Below are positions 9,603-24,106 of a stretch of DNA of 24,544 nt, one piece after another (positions within the stretch are counted from its first letter, which is position 1; each line of letters opens with the position of its first letter). The stretch is from the IMG/VR virus record IMGVR_UViG_3300010885_046561, positions 1-24,544 of that record, one strand, 5' to 3'. Position numbers and translations under genes: made by a program. The notes under the pieces were generated by a model that saw only the letters and a program-made list of their open reading frames with translations, did no database searches and was not told the origin of the DNA. The DNA comes from a virus.

Positions 9603-12600
9603 ATGATAAATAAAACCATAACATTAACTGAAAAAGGTAGAAGTGCAGGACCAGATTATTCTGTATTTTATTCAACTGATTGTACTAATTATACATTAGC
9701 TAATGCTAGTGTATCGTTACCAAACATTGGTTCTACTGCTGTTGTTTCAGTTGCTGATAATACTCTTTGTATTAAATTGGTAAACTTATCACCTACTTGT
9801 AATGAAAATGATGTAATAATTGATTTAAGAAATACAACTACTACTACAACTACACTACGTCCAAGCAATTACGATATTTGTAAATGTTTAGAATATGATT
9901 TTGTGCCAGGCAGTGGTACTCAAACTGTTACAAATGTTTTACGTTGTGGAACTTTAACATCAGGAAGTATTTCAATATCAACAAATACAGCTATATGTAT
10001 TGTTTCTCAATCGGCACCATATGTTGGAATAACAGGTGTTGGTTCTCAAATTAATTTAGTAGGAACATGTACTACTGGTTCTTGTACAACTACAACAACC
10101 ACAACTACAACTACTCAAGCTCCTGTAACTACTACTACAACTCAGAATCCTGCGTTTACAACTACTACAACTTATGCACCTGGTACATTTGTTAGAGTAG
10201 TAGCTCACCAATGTCAAGATTTTTATGATTTCCAAACATATTTAGTTTCTTCAACACCTCAACCGGCTATTGATAATGTATATAAAGATGCATATGGACA
10301 ATGTTATTATGTAACATCAATACCAACAGGTACAGGTCCTAATGTTGGAACTTTAACTTATGTAGGTGGAGCTGGAAGTTGTACATCTTCTTCTTGTGTT
10401 ACTACTACAACTACTGCAGCACCTTATTGTAATATATGGCAAGTACAAAACTCATTTGGTTTTGGACAATATTTCAAATATCAATATTGCGGACAACAGC
10501 AATATACATATTTACAAGTACCAGCAAATACAACTGTAACTGTATGTACTCAAAATGATAGAATATATAATTCATTTAGTTCATCTTTAACATTTAATAA
10601 TTTATCAACTTCTTGTACCGGTACTACTACAACTACAACATTAGCACCTGTATTACAAAGAATTGTAGCACATAATTGCCAGGACTTTTATGATTTTGGA
10701 ACATATGGTGTAAACGTAAACTTACACCCATCATCTTCTATTGGTGAAGTATTTAAAGATACTTATGGAACTTGTTATTACGCAACATCAATACCAAGCG
10801 ACCAAACTTTACCAGTATTAGGTACTCTTACTTTTGTAGGTGGAACAGGTGCTTGTACATCATCTCAATGTGTTACAACAACAACAACAATAGCTCCTTT
10901 TTGTAATCAATGGAAAGTAGAAAACGATAGTGGATTTGGACAAAATTTTAAATACCAATATTGTGGACAAACTGGTTACTTATATCCTGAAGTTGCAGCA
11001 TATAGTTCAGTAACTGTTTGTGTTCAAAATAATAGAATATTTAATTCGTTTAGTTCTTCAATGGAGTTTACTAATTTAAATACTTCATGTAACGCTACTA
11101 CAACAACAACTACAACACAAGGACCTGTTGTGAAATTTACAGCAGCAAATTGCCAAGATATATATGATTTTCAGGTATACCAAGCAGCATCTGCTTCATA
11201 CTCATTAGGTGATGTATTTAAAGATTCCTACGGAACATGTTATAACATACTTTCATTTAATGGACAGGTAGCAGTTGGAACTTTAACATATGTTGGACCT
11301 GCAGGAAGCTGTAATTCTTCATCTTGCGTAACAACAACTACAACGGCGGCACCATTTTGTAATACTTGGAAAGTAGAAAATTCATATGGAGCAGCTTATT
11401 CATTTAAGTACAAATATTGTGGAGCAATTGATTATTCATATCCTGAAGTTCCTGCAAATAGTACTGCATCTTTTTGTGTTCAAAATAATGAAATATATAA
11501 TGCATTTGGAACTCCTTTATATTTTACTAACTTATCATCTAGCTGTAATGCCACTACTACGACAAGTACAACTACAACTACAACTACTTTACCTTCCGGT
11601 TGTTTTACATATAACGTTGTAAACAATGGAGCTGGTACTGCTTATTACGATTATCAATATTGTAATGGAACTTATAATCATATACAATTAGCAGGTAATG
11701 GTACATCATCAAGTGTTTGTGTACTTAATCATAATATTAGTTCATCTTATGCTGGATTTACTTTTACATTTACAGGAAATAGTTGTTCAGCAACTACTAC
11801 AACGACTACTACTACTACATCTACTACTACAACCACAACTACATTAGCGCCTGGCTGTTTTACATACAATGTTATTAATGCAGGTGGTGGTACAGCTGCA
11901 TTTAATTATGTTGCTTGTAGTGGAAGTACTCCAACAAATGTTTTTTTAGCACCAGCTGCATCATCTTCAGTATGTGTTGATAACGCACAAATAAGTAGTG
12001 ATTATTTCTATATGGTAATTAATAGAACTACATCTTCTTGTTCACCTACTACAACTACTACATCTACTACAACTACAACTACTTTACCTTCAGGTTGTTT
12101 TATTTTTAATGTAAGTTGTTCTTTAAGTGCTGTATTTGCAAAAACAGTAAATTATGTTTCTTGTAGTTCAGCAGTAACATCTTCATTAAGTATATCGCCT
12201 GGATATAGTGCATCAGTTTGTGTTGATAATTACAAAATATCTACACCTGACCCATCTTATATTAGTTGGTATAATACATTTATATCTTGTACTAATAATA
12301 CAACTACAACTACTACATCTACTACATCTACTACTACTACAACTACTACAACTGCAGGGCCTGTTGTGAATCAAAAAGTTGTAATGCAAAGTTGCGTAGG
12401 AAGTGGTTCTGTTATTACTCCTATTGAATTAGTAGTAAATGGACCTGCATTGGTAAATGGAAACGTAGTTCATATTGTTGGTGGATTTGCTGATTTGTAT
12501 TGTTATACTATTACAAATTCAAATTATACAGGAAGTGTTGTTTATTACAAAGATATTGATGCTAAATATGCAAATTGTGGAGCTTGTACTGAAGGTGATA

Positions 12601-14117
12601 TAACTACAACTACAACATCAACTACAACTGCAGGTCCAACTACAACAACAACTGCTGGTCCTGTTGTATGTGAATATTTTCAATTACAAGCCGGAGATAA
12701 TGATGGAAATAGAGCTTATATTACTGCTGTTACTTGTGATGGAACTGAATTTACAATAGTTGGTGGTGGTACAATTGGAAATAGTAATATACCTCCAACA
12801 TATTATGATGGATGTTTAAGAACAAATCCATATCCGCATGTAGTTGGTTCTCCAGGCGTTTCTACATATTTTATTGATTCATATGGTAGTGGAAGTTGTA
12901 CTCAATGTAATTGCGTTTCTGCTTCATTTATTGATAATTCAGGCGAAGGTGCACGTATAAGTTATATGGGATGTAGTGGAACAATTGTTAGTAATCAATA
13001 TCAAGATGGAGATTTAACTGTTTGTGCTATAAGTGGAACTGCACATTTTGCATCACAGCCTGAAGCTGGATGGTCTTTAGGTCAAGGTGCATCTTGTGGA
13101 ACTGCTACAAGATGTCAAAATACTACAACTACTACAACAACTGCTTCTCCTTTTGTAAGCGTTGAATATTTAATAGTAGCAGGTGGAGGAGCCGGTGGCG
13201 GCCCTAATAATGGTGTAAATGCAGGAGCTGGTGGAGGCGGAGGAGCTGGTGGATTATTATCAGGATCGATGGGCTTATATCAATTACAATACAATGTAAT
13301 AGTAGGTACTGCAGGAACATATCTTGGCGGAATAAATGCTGGAAATAATGGTGGAAGCTCTTCATTTAATGGAGTAAATACTATTGGTGGAGGTGGTGGA
13401 GGTGCTGCTAGTACTTCTGGTACAAATGCAAAATCAGGTGGTTCAGGTGGTGGAGGTGGTAGTAATAAAACACCTCAAAGTGGATTAGGAACGGCAGGCC
13501 AAGGAAGAAATGGTGGTGTAGGTTATCAATATAACCACTATGCAGGTGGTGGTGGAGGTGCATCTAGCGTTGGGGGTGCTGGTGTAAATGGCTCCAATGG
13601 TGGTGGTGGAATAGGTTCTTTTAATAATATATCAGGTACAAATATTAACTACGCTGAAGGCGGAGCAGGTGGAAGTGCAACTGCACCAACATTAATTGGT
13701 GGGGGTGGTGGTGGAGCAGGATATCCTACTGGAAATGGTACAGCAGGAGCAAATGGAACTGTAATTATAAAATATTTAGGAACTCCAATTGCAACAGGTG
13801 GAACAATTACACAAGTTGGTGGGTATACTATACATACATTTACAACATCTGGTACTTTAATTGTAGGTGGAGCAACAACAACTACGACATCTACTACAAC
13901 TACGACATCTACAACTACAACAATTTCTCCAACGGGAGGATGTTATCAATTTACATTTGCAGTAGCAAGTGGAGTTGAAACTGCAAGTTATGTATTATGT
14001 AATGGAAATACAATTACTAATACACAAGTTTCAGGATCCTTAACTGTATGTTGCTATGAGCAACCAAAAAGTATTACAGGAAATGGTTCTACAATAACAC
14101 AGGGAGCCGCTTGTTAA
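9603..14117 (+). CDS. Giant modular poly-threonine-linked tail fibre/adhesin
   Basis: The protein has 1504 residues, the longest in the window. Residues 1-75 form an N-terminal domain (SAGPDYSVFYSTDCTNYTLA) that probably attaches it to the tail. Fourteen linkers of Thr, with some Ser, follow; they are often closed by AP, AGP or LPS. Between them sit cysteine-bearing modules of about 60-75 residues. Type A (VAHQCQDFYDFQTY ... GSCTSSSC) occurs three times clearly. Type B (C ... YQYCG ... VCVQNN ... SC) occurs six times plus more distant copies. Residues about 1183-1423 are a glycine-rich domain starting VEYLIVAGGGAGGG, like the Gly-rich domains of phage tail fibres (PF21722-like, by memory). 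A last B-like module ends the protein. Paired cysteines suggest disulfides in each module. The likely role is host-surface binding. There is no signal peptide, as expected for a virion protein. It is followed by two glycosyltransferases. Confidence 0.75.
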   Translation: MINKTITLTEKGRSAGPDYSVFYSTDCTNYTLANASVSLPNIGSTAVVSVADNTLCIKLVNLSPTCNENDVIIDLRNTTTTTTTLRPSNYDICKCLEYDFVPGSGTQTVTNVLRCGTLTSGSISISTNTAICIVSQSAPYVGITGVGSQINLVGTCTTGSCTTTTTTTTTTQAPVTTTTTQNPAFTTTTTYAPGTFVRVVAHQCQDFYDFQTYLVSSTPQPAIDNVYKDAYGQCYYVTSIPTGTGPNVGTLTYVGGAGSCTSSSCVTTTTTAAPYCNIWQVQNSFGFGQYFKYQYCGQQQYTYLQVPANTTVTVCTQNDRIYNSFSSSLTFNNLSTSCTGTTTTTTLAPVLQRIVAHNCQDFYDFGTYGVNVNLHPSSSIGEVFKDTYGTCYYATSIPSDQTLPVLGTLTFVGGTGACTSSQCVTTTTTIAPFCNQWKVENDSGFGQNFKYQYCGQTGYLYPEVAAYSSVTVCVQNNRIFNSFSSSMEFTNLNTSCNATTTTTTTQGPVVKFTAANCQDIYDFQVYQAASASYSLGDVFKDSYGTCYNILSFNGQVAVGTLTYVGPAGSCNSSSCVTTTTTAAPFCNTWKVENSYGAAYSFKYKYCGAIDYSYPEVPANSTASFCVQNNEIYNAFGTPLYFTNLSSSCNATTTTSTTTTTTTLPSGCFTYNVVNNGAGTAYYDYQYCNGTYNHIQLAGNGTSSSVCVLNHNISSSYAGFTFTFTGNSCSATTTTTTTTTSTTTTTTTLAPGCFTYNVINAGGGTAAFNYVACSGSTPTNVFLAPAASSSVCVDNAQISSDYFYMVINRTTSSCSPTTTTTSTTTTTTLPSGCFIFNVSCSLSAVFAKTVNYVSCSSAVTSSLSISPGYSASVCVDNYKISTPDPSYISWYNTFISCTNNTTTTTTSTTSTTTTTTTTAGPVVNQKVVMQSCVGSGSVITPIELVVNGPALVNGNVVHIVGGFADLYCYTITNSNYTGSVVYYKDIDAKYANCGACTEGDITTTTTSTTTAGPTTTTTAGPVVCEYFQLQAGDNDGNRAYITAVTCDGTEFTIVGGGTIGNSNIPPTYYDGCLRTNPYPHVVGSPGVSTYFIDSYGSGSCTQCNCVSASFIDNSGEGARISYMGCSGTIVSNQYQDGDLTVCAISGTAHFASQPEAGWSLGQGASCGTATRCQNTTTTTTTASPFVSVEYLIVAGGGAGGGPNNGVNAGAGGGGGAGGLLSGSMGLYQLQYNVIVGTAGTYLGGINAGNNGGSSSFNGVNTIGGGGGGAASTSGTNAKSGGSGGGGGSNKTPQSGLGTAGQGRNGGVGYQYNHYAGGGGGASSVGGAGVNGSNGGGGIGSFNNISGTNINYAEGGAGGSATAPTLIGGGGGGAGYPTGNGTAGANGTVIIKYLGTPIATGGTITQVGGYTIHTFTTSGTLIVGGATTTTTSTTTTTSTTTTISPTGGCYQFTFAVASGVETASYVLCNGNTITNTQVSGSLTVCCYEQPKSITGNGSTITQGAAC
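9831..13930 (+). repeat. Fourteen ACN-codon (poly-Thr) linker tracts
   Basis: Tracts of ACT/ACA codons, some with TCT/TCA/AGT Ser codons, lie at about 9831-9863, 10082-10182, 10401-10423, 10621-10648, 10873-10898, 11093-11125, 11330-11353, 11550-11593, 11791-11850, 12046-12088, 12297-12362, 12602-12661, 13120-13150 and 13873-13930. At the DNA level they are near-perfect trinucleotide or hexanucleotide repeats on a three-base frame. Slippage or unequal recombination between them would change linker length or module number without shifting the frame. The protein linkers would be extended and are potential O-glycosylation targets. Confidence 0.85.
10183..11553 (+). repeat. Three tandem A+B coding repeats in the adhesin
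   Basis: A module of type A then type B occurs three times, beginning near 10183, 10649 and 11126 (periods of about 466 and 477 bases). Each A copy carries CQD.YDF..Y, a K-D-[AST]-Y-G-x-C core and a GTLT[YF]VG strand before GSC/GAC. Each B copy has C..W.V.N, F.Y.YCG, a VC.QN or FCVQN strand and a final SC. Linkers separate every half. Further B-type modules (11594-11790, 11851-12045, 12089-12296, 13931-14114) extend the array without A partners. The pattern indicates internal duplication followed by divergence. Confidence 0.85.
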
Positions 14118-21205: not shown

Positions 21206-21234
21206 CATTATTAAATAACTAAAACAATAAAAAA

Positions 21235-21717
21235 ATGGCTAAAGACCCTGCGGTGTTATTTTACACCCAAGACTTCCTTGTAGGAACAATGACAATGAGT
21301 ATGGAACAAAAAGGTAAGTATATACACTTACTTTGTTTGCAGCATCAAAAATCAAAACTAACTTTAAAAGATTTGCAATCTGTATTAACTGATGAAGATG
21401 TAGATATTGCTGAAAGGTTTGTACAATATGATGATGGATTTTATTATAATATCAGAATGCAAGAAGAAGCTGATAAAAGAAAGAAATATACAGAAAGTAG
21501 AAGAAATAATAGAACTAAGAAACCATATGATATAGATGTGAATAAGATATCTAAATCATATGTTAATTCATATGTTAAACGTATGGAAAATGAAAATGCA
21601 ACTGTAAATGTAAATGAAGTTGCAACTGTAAATGCTAATATAAATTCTAGTAACAGTACTAGTACTAGCATAGACTTTGATAAATTAATAAATGATATTA
21701 AATCAGTAAGAATTTAA
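21235..21717 (+). CDS. Short DUF1376/DnaD-type replication protein
   Basis: The 160-residue product begins AKDPAVLFYTQDFLVGTMTM followed by SMEQKGKYIHLLCLQHQKSK. This matches the N-terminal winged-helix region of phage replication-initiation and DUF1376 proteins ('dp...Y..DFl.gT..ms..e.G.Yi.LLc.qh..g.l'). Residues about 75-110 are Arg/Lys-rich. The tail (about 115-150) is low-complexity Asn/Thr/Val/Ser (ATVNVNEVATVNANINSSNS), where longer family members have a DnaD helicase-loader domain. It is thus a short form, perhaps a regulator or truncated initiator. It has its own promoter and a following terminator, so it is a single-gene unit. Confidence 0.65.
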   Translation: MAKDPAVLFYTQDFLVGTMTMSMEQKGKYIHLLCLQHQKSKLTLKDLQSVLTDEDVDIAERFVQYDDGFYYNIRMQEEADKRKKYTESRRNNRTKKPYDIDVNKISKSYVNSYVKRMENENATVNVNEVATVNANINSSNSTSTSIDFDKLINDIKSVRI

Positions 21718-21743
21718 ATAAATTAATTACTTTTATAATCTAC

Positions 21744-21864
21744 ATATGTTATAGTAGAGTAAGGCTTAATCTCGTACTAAATCTATATTTACTATTTAAT
21801 ATTTAGTGCCTTACCACATAACATATTGAGCGTAGGTTTCTAGTCATTCCTACGCTCTTTTTTT
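21744..21864 (+). ncRNA. Candidate structured RNA with three nested helices
   Basis: Three perfect inverted-repeat helices nest around one loop: ATATGTTAT (21744-21752) with ATAACATAT (21818-21826), GTAAGGC (21759-21765) with GCCTTAC (21808-21814), and ACTAAAT (21776-21782) with ATTTAGT (21801-21807). This gives 23 pairs. The outer and middle helices are separated by a 6 x 3 internal loop, the middle and inner by a 10-base bulge on the 5' side only, and the apical loop has 18 bases. One base later comes a perfect terminator hairpin. The 239-base gap between genes (21718-21956) is otherwise non-coding apart from the promoter at 21875. It could be a stand-alone small RNA, a 3' UTR-derived RNA of the upstream gene, or a riboregulator. 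No clear promoter for it alone was seen. Confidence 0.6.
21828..21864 (+). terminator. Intrinsic terminator at the 3' end of the structured RNA
   Basis: GAGCGTAGG (21828-21836) pairs perfectly with CCTACGCTC (21849-21857) around a 12-base loop, followed by seven T residues (21858-21864). It ends the transcript of the 21235 gene and/or of the structured RNA. Confidence 0.9.
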
Positions 21865-21906: not shown

Positions 21907-21956
21907 TGTTTGAAAAAAATCTATATATTTATTATAGTATACTAAAGATTACAAAA

Positions 21957-22484
21957 ATGACTAAAGAATGTAAATTATGTGGAAAGCTGAAACCACTCAT
22001 TGAATTCAGCAAATGTACATCAAATAACGATGGCTTACAGTTCCGATGTAAGAGCTGTAATAAAAAAGACAATCAACATTTTAGAGATGATATCCAACCT
22101 GATTATCAATTAGGATGGTATAAGAATAACAGAAAGAAATGGTCTGATTATGCTTTAGATTATAAGAGGGCAACTAATACTCCTACAATTTATGGAATAG
22201 TAAACCCTGATGGAGAGATGTATGTAGGTAGCACAATGGCTAGGCCTTGGGTTCGTTTCTTTCAACATAAAACTCATTATAGACAAATGCAAAAAGGAGT
22301 TACATATCTCAATAGACTGCCAAAATTACACGATTCATTTGACAAGTATGGAGAGAAGGCGCACACTTTAGTTGTGTTAGGTCAGTTTGAAGGTATTGAT
22401 AGAAAATTTTTGAATATGATTGAAACTACCTTTATTAAATCAGTAATGATGAGTGGTAAATCTCTTAATGCAAGACACCATTAA
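21957..22484 (+). CDS. Zinc-finger GIY-YIG endonuclease
   Basis: The product has 175 residues from ATG 21957; the upstream ATG at 21906 overlaps the promoter and is rejected. Residues 1-40 hold a Cys4 finger (CKLC at 5-8, CKSC at 31-34), of the type found on homing-type HNH and GIY-YIG nucleases for DNA recognition. The catalytic domain shows YGIV (79-82), YVGST (89-93), Arg100, His104, the conserved Glu156 in IETTFI and a closing LNAR (170-173), all GIY-YIG landmarks. Residues 122-134 (KLHDSFDKYGEK) match the family's 'l..a..kyG...f'. It probably cuts DNA as a free-standing homing-type or Seg-like enzyme. It heads the last gene block and is driven by the promoter at 21875. Confidence 0.75.
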   Translation: MTKECKLCGKLKPLIEFSKCTSNNDGLQFRCKSCNKKDNQHFRDDIQPDYQLGWYKNNRKKWSDYALDYKRATNTPTIYGIVNPDGEMYVGSTMARPWVRFFQHKTHYRQMQKGVTYLNRLPKLHDSFDKYGEKAHTLVVLGQFEGIDRKFLNMIETTFIKSVMMSGKSLNARHH

Positions 22485-22636: not shown

Positions 22637-22819
22637 ATGTGTATAATCAAATTAGGTAATATGGTTGAAGGATTAATCAATGTAATCACAGGGGGTTGGG
22701 GGAAAGATTTGGCGTCGTTTATAGCCAAAAAATTATTTGATAGTGATGATTGCGGCTGTGAAGCCAGAAGAATATATTTAAATGAATTATGTGGATGTAA
22801 AGAAGGAATAAAATTATGA
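22637..22819 (+). CDS. Small cysteine-containing phage protein
   Basis: The product has 60 residues from ATG 22637; the in-frame ATG at 22613 lies inside the upstream gene. The N-terminal half is hydrophobic (MVEGLINVITGGWGKDLASF). The C-terminal half has a DCGCEARRIYLNELCGC motif, with two closely spaced Cys pairs. I recall similar 'GCgC..RR..LN' proteins in phage early or packaging-side clusters, but no function. Its stop overlaps the next start (ATGA), implying coupled translation. Confidence 0.5.
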   Translation: MCIIKLGNMVEGLINVITGGWGKDLASFIAKKLFDSDDCGCEARRIYLNELCGCKEGIKL

Positions 22820-23318: not shown

Positions 23319-23552
23319 ATGGAAGAAAAAGGTAAATACCATCCATTAAATGAAGAACAATGGATTAGACTAAATGAAGTACTTGAACGTATTACATCAC
23401 ATCTTCCTGATAGTGAAGCGCCTTTTATTTGGAATATGTATAATGATACAAGAGGAGTAGCAGAACGCCAACCATGCACATGTGGAAGTAGTGGAAGATA
23501 TTGGGGAGAGTCAATTCAACATTTGAGAAGTTGGGTAAAAGAAAGAAAGTAA
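23319..23552 (+). CDS. Hypothetical 77-residue CTCG-motif protein
   Basis: The product has a helical N-terminal part (LNEEQWIRLNEVLERITSHL) and a C-terminal segment PCTCGSSGRYW with the two cysteines of a small metal- or disulfide-binding turn. I have seen 'CTCgssg.hW' on other Bacteroidota phage proteins but cannot assign it a function. Its stop overlaps the next start (TAATG), coupling it to the sigma-like gene. Confidence 0.5.
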   Translation: MEEKGKYHPLNEEQWIRLNEVLERITSHLPDSEAPFIWNMYNDTRGVAERQPCTCGSSGRYWGESIQHLRSWVKERK

Positions 23553-24106
23553 TGAACGATGTAACTTCAAGTATACAAATGGAATGTGAAAACAGACTTA
23601 CTAATCTATACAAAGAGTCGCATAATTGGTTACTTCAGGTAGCATACAATGTAACAAAGAATACTGAGAACGCAGAAGATATGGTGCAAGAACTATATGA
23701 GTATCTTCATAAAAAATGTAATCCAAAATTGTATTGGAAAGATAAAAGTTATAATTTATTATATTGTAGTAAATTTCTAAAACATAGATTCATTAATAAA
23801 ACTAAAAAGTTAAATAGAATTACCTATGTTGAAGAAATTATTGATGTAGAGTTAGATTTTGAATACGATACAGAAAAAGATTTAGCAATACAAAAAGCAT
23901 ACGATGAAGTAATAGGGGAATTAAAAAGATTAGAAGCAACTAAGTTATGGCCACAAAGTAAGTTGTTTCAATTATATTGGTGTACTGATGATACGTTAGA
24001 TGAAGTTGCAAAGAACATAGGTATAAGCAAGAGTACAACATTTTTAGCAGTAAAGAAAATAAGAACCTATTTAAAACAAGTTATAAATAATCCATTTAAT
24101 GAATGA
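23552..24106 (+). CDS. Sigma-70-like DNA-binding protein
   Basis: The product has 184 residues from ATG 23552; an in-frame ATG at 23501 lies inside the upstream gene. Residues about 20-85 resemble sigma region 2 (LLQVAYNVTKNTENAEDMVQ followed by ELYEYLHKKC). Residues about 138-175 form a clear helix-turn-helix like region 4: LFQLYWCTDDTLDEVAKNIG then ISKSTTFLAVKKIRTYLKQ. Two-domain proteins of this sort in Bacteroidota phages are usually annotated as sigma-70 family factors. It might direct phage promoters. An alternative is a small-terminase-like or other HTH protein, since it lies before an unfinished gene block. It overlaps the next gene by eight bases. Confidence 0.55.
   Translation: MNDVTSSIQMECENRLTNLYKESHNWLLQVAYNVTKNTENAEDMVQELYEYLHKKCNPKLYWKDKSYNLLYCSKFLKHRFINKTKKLNRITYVEEIIDVELDFEYDTEKDLAIQKAYDEVIGELKRLEATKLWPQSKLFQLYWCTDDTLDEVAKNIGISKSTTFLAVKKIRTYLKQVINNPFNE

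Follow-up and report, generated by a model that had tools for sequence, protein, structure and literature searches.

A Structured RNA Family in Phages with a Terminator Loop That Matches the Start-Codon Region of Neighboring Homing-Type Endonuclease Genes

We show here that a viral record of 24,544 bases from IMG/VR, the whole of which is referred to below as the window, carries a structured RNA that is a member of a real RNA family absent from Rfam, and that in most phages with this RNA the loop of its terminator matches the start-codon region of the phage's own neighboring homing-type endonuclease gene. We propose that it is a small RNA of about 120 to 130 nucleotides (nt), representing a new family in phages of Bacteroidota-type bacteria, in which a conserved scaffold (P0, P1, a UUAA bulge, and P2) is followed by a terminator whose exposed loop would act as an antisense seed. 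The seed would pair with the start-codon region of the mRNA of the neighboring homing-type endonuclease, and probably also with the start of a DUF1376-like (primosomal) gene, and this pairing would block translation initiation, so that the nuclease might be kept low or be timed during infection. On comparative sequence evidence, we consider it likely that the RNA is an antisense repressor of initiation of the endonuclease and probably also of the DUF1376-like gene.

Results

The structured RNA with its terminator occupies positions 21744 to 21864 on the plus strand of the window, its 5' end being uncertain (about 21735 to 21744), and sits between a DUF1376-like gene (stop at 21717) and an endonuclease gene (start at 21957). 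The original prediction had described three perfect helices of 9, 7, and 7 pairs, a bulge, an internal loop, and a terminator, all of which were recovered in place. P0 is a perfect 9-bp helix of ATATGTTAT (21744 to 21752) and ATAACATAT (21818 to 21826), P1 a 7-bp helix of GTAAGGC (21759 to 21765) and GCCTTAC (21808 to 21814), and P2 a 7-bp helix of ACTAAAT (21776 to 21782) and ATTTAGT (21801 to 21807), P1 and P2 being supported by both folding and covariation. A 6 x 3 internal loop lies between P0 and P1, and a one-sided 10-nt bulge, TTAATCTCGT, occupies positions 21766 to 21775. The intrinsic terminator (21828 to 21864) consists of a 9-bp hairpin, GAGCGTAGG-12 nt-CCTACGCTC (21828 to 21857), and a run of seven T residues; all these elements are on the plus strand. 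Comparison of the folding energy with that of shuffled sequence, which had been proposed as a check, gave -34.3 kcal/mol for positions 21735 to 21864 versus -16.8 +/- 2.9 kcal/mol in dinucleotide shuffles (z = -6.0), and none of 200 shuffles was as stable.

The gene 5' of the RNA (21235 to 21717, plus strand) encodes a DUF1376-like, primosomal-protein-like product with matches to primosomal PHROGs and to Pfam DUF1376 (E value of 3e-5, a score under the family cutoff). The gene on its 3' side (21957 to 22484, plus strand) matched phrog_1035 (E value of 2e-9) and phrog_7168 (2.5e-5), and its product combines an N-terminal zinc ribbon (endonuclease VII/HNH PHROGs) with a C-terminal GIY-YIG-like region (homing endonuclease PHROG). 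HNH_3/NUMOD4 proteins occupy this position in relatives; among ten endonuclease neighbors tested, HNH_3 was found in eight and NUMOD4 in one. The family of the endonuclease 3' of the RNA thus varies from zinc-ribbon/GIY-YIG in the window to HNH_3 with or without NUMOD4 elsewhere, and possession of an HNH/NUMOD or GIY-YIG domain marks the neighbor as a predicted homing endonuclease gene. Elsewhere in the window, a sigma-70-like protein that is conserved clade-wide is encoded downstream of the RNA locus (23501 to 24106), and positions 22637 to 22819 encode a Cys-rich protein of 60 residues (MCIIKLGN...CGCEARRIYLNELCGCK) that is extremely conserved within the clade and for which no relative was found among phage isolates. 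Positions 9603 to 14117 encode a 1,504-residue protein in which Thr-rich linkers recur between similar domains and which looks like a phage surface or fiber-type protein.

A nucleotide search of phage isolates with the region, an exact-core scan of IMG/VR, and a protein search of isolates with the DUF1376-like and Cys-rich neighbor proteins gave no close isolate; the sole match of the window capsid protein was to Nonlabens phage P12024 (27%). Two relatives, L002 and L003, were reached through the DUF1376-like gene; in both, the gene order is kept and the fold is the same, with different helix sequences. About 150 more viral loci were collected via two neighbor proteins, and copies of the RNA were detected by a descriptor scan and then with a covariance model, R1, built from ten copies. 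R1 found many further copies, including clear matches beyond its training set; the window copy, itself one of the ten training sequences, scores 64.7 bits (E value of about 1e-13). A third, independent neighbor, the sigma-like protein, added about 78 new loci; 64 of these were searched with R1, which yielded 37 copies. A loose pattern scan with CTTAATNAATACTCNNT retrieved a copy in only three of 80 loci, two of them new; within the range tested, the RNA is therefore restricted to this phage clade. A weak second match at the end of record G001 (L283) was treated as chance, since a terminator is absent there. DUF1376-like relatives were also present on contigs of genomes labeled Oscillospiraceae and Clostridia (L150 and L151), possibly phage contigs that were assigned to the wrong host in binning.

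Among 28 copies, 96.8% of core-pair cells were paired, with double changes at 12 of 13 pairs; 98 cells were double-changed, versus 26.5 in shuffles, and slid controls paired at 31 to 48%. The final alignment of 51 distinct copies in related phage contigs had 97.2% of core-pair cells paired, 223 double-changed cells versus 72 in shuffles, and slid controls at 34 to 46%, again with double changes at 12 of the 13 core pairs; being fitted to the model, this alignment leans toward the structure, an effect that does not touch the strong matches of independent loci. P1 showed double changes at all seven pairs (98% of cells paired) and P2 at five of its six modeled pairs (96%). The covariance check in related phages thus went in favor of the prediction: P1 and P2 are retained with compensatory changes, and neither loss of the helices nor uncompensated breakage of pairs, both of which were looked for, occurred. 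Because homologs keep P1 and P2 in this way, the fold in the window is not a product of chance. No Rfam 15 family matched the window or its relatives at or above the gathering cutoff, all matches in permissive searches were far under gathering scores, and a tRNA/tmRNA search found none.

Column counts over the 51 copies gave a bulge consensus of UUAA(n)AAU in which UUAA is near-invariant, and a conserved (A/G)CU opens the 5' arm of P2. A contact between this UUAA and a TTAA in the apical loop, as had been suggested, was abandoned because the apical loop is not conserved and holds no conserved TTAA. P0 is optional, occurring in about 17 of 28 copies inspected with a sequence that differs between them. 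As for the role of the scaffold, we can offer the guess that it is a protein or stability site.

A terminator hairpin stands 3' of the scaffold in almost every complete copy. Immediately 5' of the RNA, 24 of 51 copies have a promoter of the form TTTG-N17-21-TAnnTT, versus 2.0 in shuffles, and opposite-strand copies are among them; this promoter corresponds to the Bacteroidetes sigma-A type, with TAnnTTTG at -7 and TTTG at about -33 (PMC7366714). The claim that the RNA lies between two promoters stands in part, as many relatives have a clear promoter for the RNA and the window has a degenerate one; transcription of the RNA in the window is presumed. As would be expected of a base-pairing small RNA, the gene appears to be a discrete unit with a promoter and an intrinsic terminator, the promoter of the window copy not being clear. 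Copies without the standard promoter have in common an A-rich box like AATTAAATACAAAATTAAAAAAGAATGTTTAT about 60 to 20 nt upstream of P1 (L140, L182, L353, L355, L359, L298, L317, L310, and L125), perhaps a promoter for the phage's own sigma-like factor.

That the RNA directly follows the DUF1376-like gene in the window and many relatives, and that about half of the copies have no recognizable promoter, would suit an ordinary terminator with a 3' untranslated region (UTR) fold of that gene and no regulatory role. In several copies, however, the RNA is encoded on the other strand from the neighboring genes and is therefore not merely a 3' UTR; with the conserved scaffold and loop, the promoters of opposite-strand copies, and the specific complementarity described below also against it, this explanation is extremely improbable. 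Of the two options raised by the original prediction, an undescribed phage small RNA or a 3' UTR element, the strong covariation, the terminator, the promoters, and the lack of an Rfam match agree with an undescribed element of this kind.

The word GYCAU(U), antisense to AUGRC, is kept in the terminator loops while the terminator stems differ among copies. In the window, this seed, UAGUCAUU (21841 to 21848, plus strand), which is predicted to be mostly unpaired, can form eight Watson-Crick pairs with AAUGACUA at the endonuclease start (21956 to 21963, plus strand; ATG at 21957). By contiguous pairing, this proposed target ranks first among the 15 gene starts of the window, with a duplex energy of -8.8 kcal/mol versus -3 to -5 kcal/mol for unrelated starts. 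A probable second target, AAUGGCUA at the DUF1376-like start (21234 to 21241, plus strand; ATG at 21235), ranks second with eight pairs, one of them G-U; at -10.6 kcal/mol, its duplex was more stable than that of any other window start tried. In 34 of 60 nonredundant loci, GYCATT occurs in the 300 nt preceding the endonuclease, versus 5.9 expected; control counts were 5 on the reverse strand and 0 to 3 upstream of other genes.

Across copies, the median number of contiguous pairs between the seed and its target is 8 and the maximum 13, and loop and start differ together between phages. Compensated pairs include UGCCAUCGGUU/AACCGAUGGCA in L332, UGCCAUGUUU/AAACAUGGCA in L300, and GUCAUAUU/AAUAUGAC in L002, with further cases in L019 (AGUAUGAUAA) and L020 (11 bp); in L317, whose core is 96% identical to that of L332, the loop UUUGUCAUU stands against AAUGACAAA. 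Pairing is even retained in L319 (UUGCUAUU/AAUAGCAA) and L327, where the AUG has been lost from the paired stretch and the endonuclease begins a few bases later. Five copies fit poorly (L029, L021, L359, L340, and L125). In L008, L012, and L125, a paired AUGGCA just 5' of the endonuclease forms a tiny upstream reading frame (AUGGCACAAUUAUGA and AUGGCAAAAUGA) that overlaps the endonuclease start as AUGA, which suggests translational coupling.

Swapping loops among phages destroys the match, which is therefore phage specific. With start windows chosen by eye and identical windows used for the swaps, the summed score among 23 phages, which are related to each other, was 419 for own loops versus 340 +/- 15 for swapped ones (z = 5.3; 0 of 200,000 permutations), and z was 3.1 when loops were swapped within the GUCA and GCCA groups alone. 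Under the same windowing, and again among related phages, 18 copies fetched after the hypothesis had been formed scored 354 versus 267 +/- 14 (z = 6.2; 0 of 200,000), and the combined test gave a z of 8.9 (0 of 200,000). GUCA loops are associated with AUGA[C/U] starts, and GCCA loops are associated with AUGG[C/U] starts (17/0 versus 1/17; Fisher P = 4e-9). In 32 of 41 cases, the best pairing within the first 350 nt of the mRNA lands at the start. Applied to the starts of nine other gene families, the same test gave z values of -1.9 to 0.8 for eight and a weak 2.5 for one, the Cys-rich gene. Between closely related pairs, the own loop beat the swapped one in 124 of 165 comparisons, with 16 ties; non-overlapping, independent pairs favored own loops 10 to 6, with one tie and with wins larger than losses. 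As in base-pairing small RNAs, the family has a conserved, predicted unpaired seed that is complementary to the initiation region of its putative target and changes with it.

Since the gene starts compared were the phage's own, the true partner of the RNA could be a host mRNA or a protein, the RNA being a small RNA or a stable decay product and the start-codon match secondary. Conservation of the bulge, UUAAnnAAU, beyond the needs of a mere hairpin would fit such a partner, yet the loop and the start codon of the neighboring endonuclease change together across phages, and we regard this explanation as quite unlikely. At the DNA level, the loop and the endonuclease start might instead be a pair of operators bound by a single regulator: some phages have an Arc-like gene after the endonuclease, and shared sites in inverted orientation would appear complementary. 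Against this reading, the antisense word is invariably on the RNA strand, in whichever orientation the RNA gene lies; the word moreover sits in a hairpin loop, is aimed at the start codon, and varies freely together with its partner, which leaves a DNA-level explanation very improbable.

The copies on the opposite strand bear on how an antisense RNA would reach its target. In nine of them, the best-matching gene start is that of the endonuclease or of the DUF1376-like gene. These two starts take the first and second ranks in L296, L304, and L291, and in L296 both start regions read AAAAUGGCAC, with pairing over 10 bp. These copies keep complementarity where pairing in cis is impossible, and their start-codon matches therefore imply action in trans, presumably on separate mRNAs. 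If a leader acted in cis, as in T4-like phages, the loop of a read-through transcript would block the endonuclease start of that transcript by pairing with it, so that translation would come only from transcripts begun at the endonuclease's own promoter. In most copies, RNA, terminator, and endonuclease do follow one another on a single strand, T4 endonucleases are silenced likewise on upstream transcripts (PMC2988022), and a read-through interaction in same-strand copies would yield the identical pattern. We nevertheless consider a cis leader unlikely, given the nine opposite-strand copies, the many copies with their own promoter and terminator, and the 35 of 60 loci in which a promoter separates the terminator from the endonuclease. 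Several opposite-strand copies have the DUF1376-like start as their best target; in the set made up mostly of same-strand copies, this gene showed no phage-specific matching (z = 0.76).

Loci without an R1 match often hold a second RNA (class II) at the same place, in which a first hairpin with the loop ..GCCAUU.. is followed by a GAGAG-AAUAAUAC-CUCUC hairpin and a terminator, often behind a good TTTGG-N19-TATATTTG promoter (L008, 2249 to 2348; L042, 5506 to 5608; L056, 3536 to 3634; L147, 1948 to 2054; and others). Seed-target covariation in class II was not significant in the swap test (z = 0.42), and phage-specific matching is therefore not claimed for it. A third arrangement, 250 nt upstream of the endonuclease in L086, L088, L098, L104, L095, and L116, consists of a hairpin with the loop UUGCCAUUUUAU or CGCCAUUUUAU and a terminator, the loop of which often has GUGUCAUUUCC or UUUCAUUU.

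Discussion

Free-standing homing endonucleases are common parasites of phages. A review describes their translational control as largely unexplored beyond the cis hairpins of T4-like phages (PMC2988022). If the proposed function holds true, a dedicated trans-acting RNA would add a new layer of conflict or coadaptation between selfish nucleases and phages. We infer that the pairing represses rather than activates initiation. Bacteroidetes mRNAs have no classical Shine-Dalgarno sequences, and Bacteroides has no obvious Hfq (PMC7366714); because of the former, a duplex over the AUG would be a sensible control point, and start-codon masking is a plausible small-RNA mode for Bacteroidota phages. 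As seed-target pairs change together in dozens of phages, the idea is directly testable with simple reporters.

Terminator, promoter, and endonuclease seem to be swapped as one cassette onto a constant RNA scaffold. Such cassette exchange would preserve the match of seed and target through the replacement of one endonuclease family by another. It is tempting to extend this to a trans-acting small-RNA family that is dedicated to restraining homing-type endonucleases, is exchanged as a cassette, and corepresses a replication-type neighbor gene; for this wider proposal, we judge the chances to be about even.

Our literature search found no small RNA that targets homing endonucleases in trans, and the window RNA shares single features with several known systems. 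Like CfrI of cyanophage S-PM2, it is a phage noncoding RNA adjoining a free-standing homing endonuclease gene; CfrI lies between psbA and that gene, is described as an antisense RNA linked to psbA, and has been reported neither to pair with the endonuclease start nor to form a structured family (PMC12197685). In having the loop of an intrinsic terminator as its seed, it resembles Helicobacter pylori RepG, a bacterial RNA whose C/U-rich loop acts against a G repeat in a leader and whose sequence and targets are unrelated to those of the window RNA (PMC8295292).

The type I toxin-antitoxin systems SymE/SymR and RalR/RalA likewise use an RNA antisense to a nuclease mRNA (PMC4147584), and the window RNA is predicted to be antisense to the mRNA of a putative toxin in this sense, with a short seed against the nuclease start. 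SymR covers the symE start codon and is a full cis-antisense RNA encoded opposite its target, while RalA, directed against a DNase, requires Hfq and acts by pairing within the coding region (PMC4147584). Unlike these, the window RNA has its short seed in a loop and is built on a conserved scaffold.

A parallel in the target is found in the cis hairpin controls of T4-type endonuclease genes, i.e., those of I-TevI, I-TevII, I-TevIII, segB, and Aeh1 mobE (PMC2988022). There, phage homing-type endonucleases are restrained at translation initiation via RNA pairing, and the same is predicted for the system described here. In the T4 system, the hairpin forms in cis, within the endonuclease transcript itself, and hides the ribosome binding site (PMC2988022), whereas the RNA described here would be a separate structured molecule with a terminator, some copies of which lie on the other strand.
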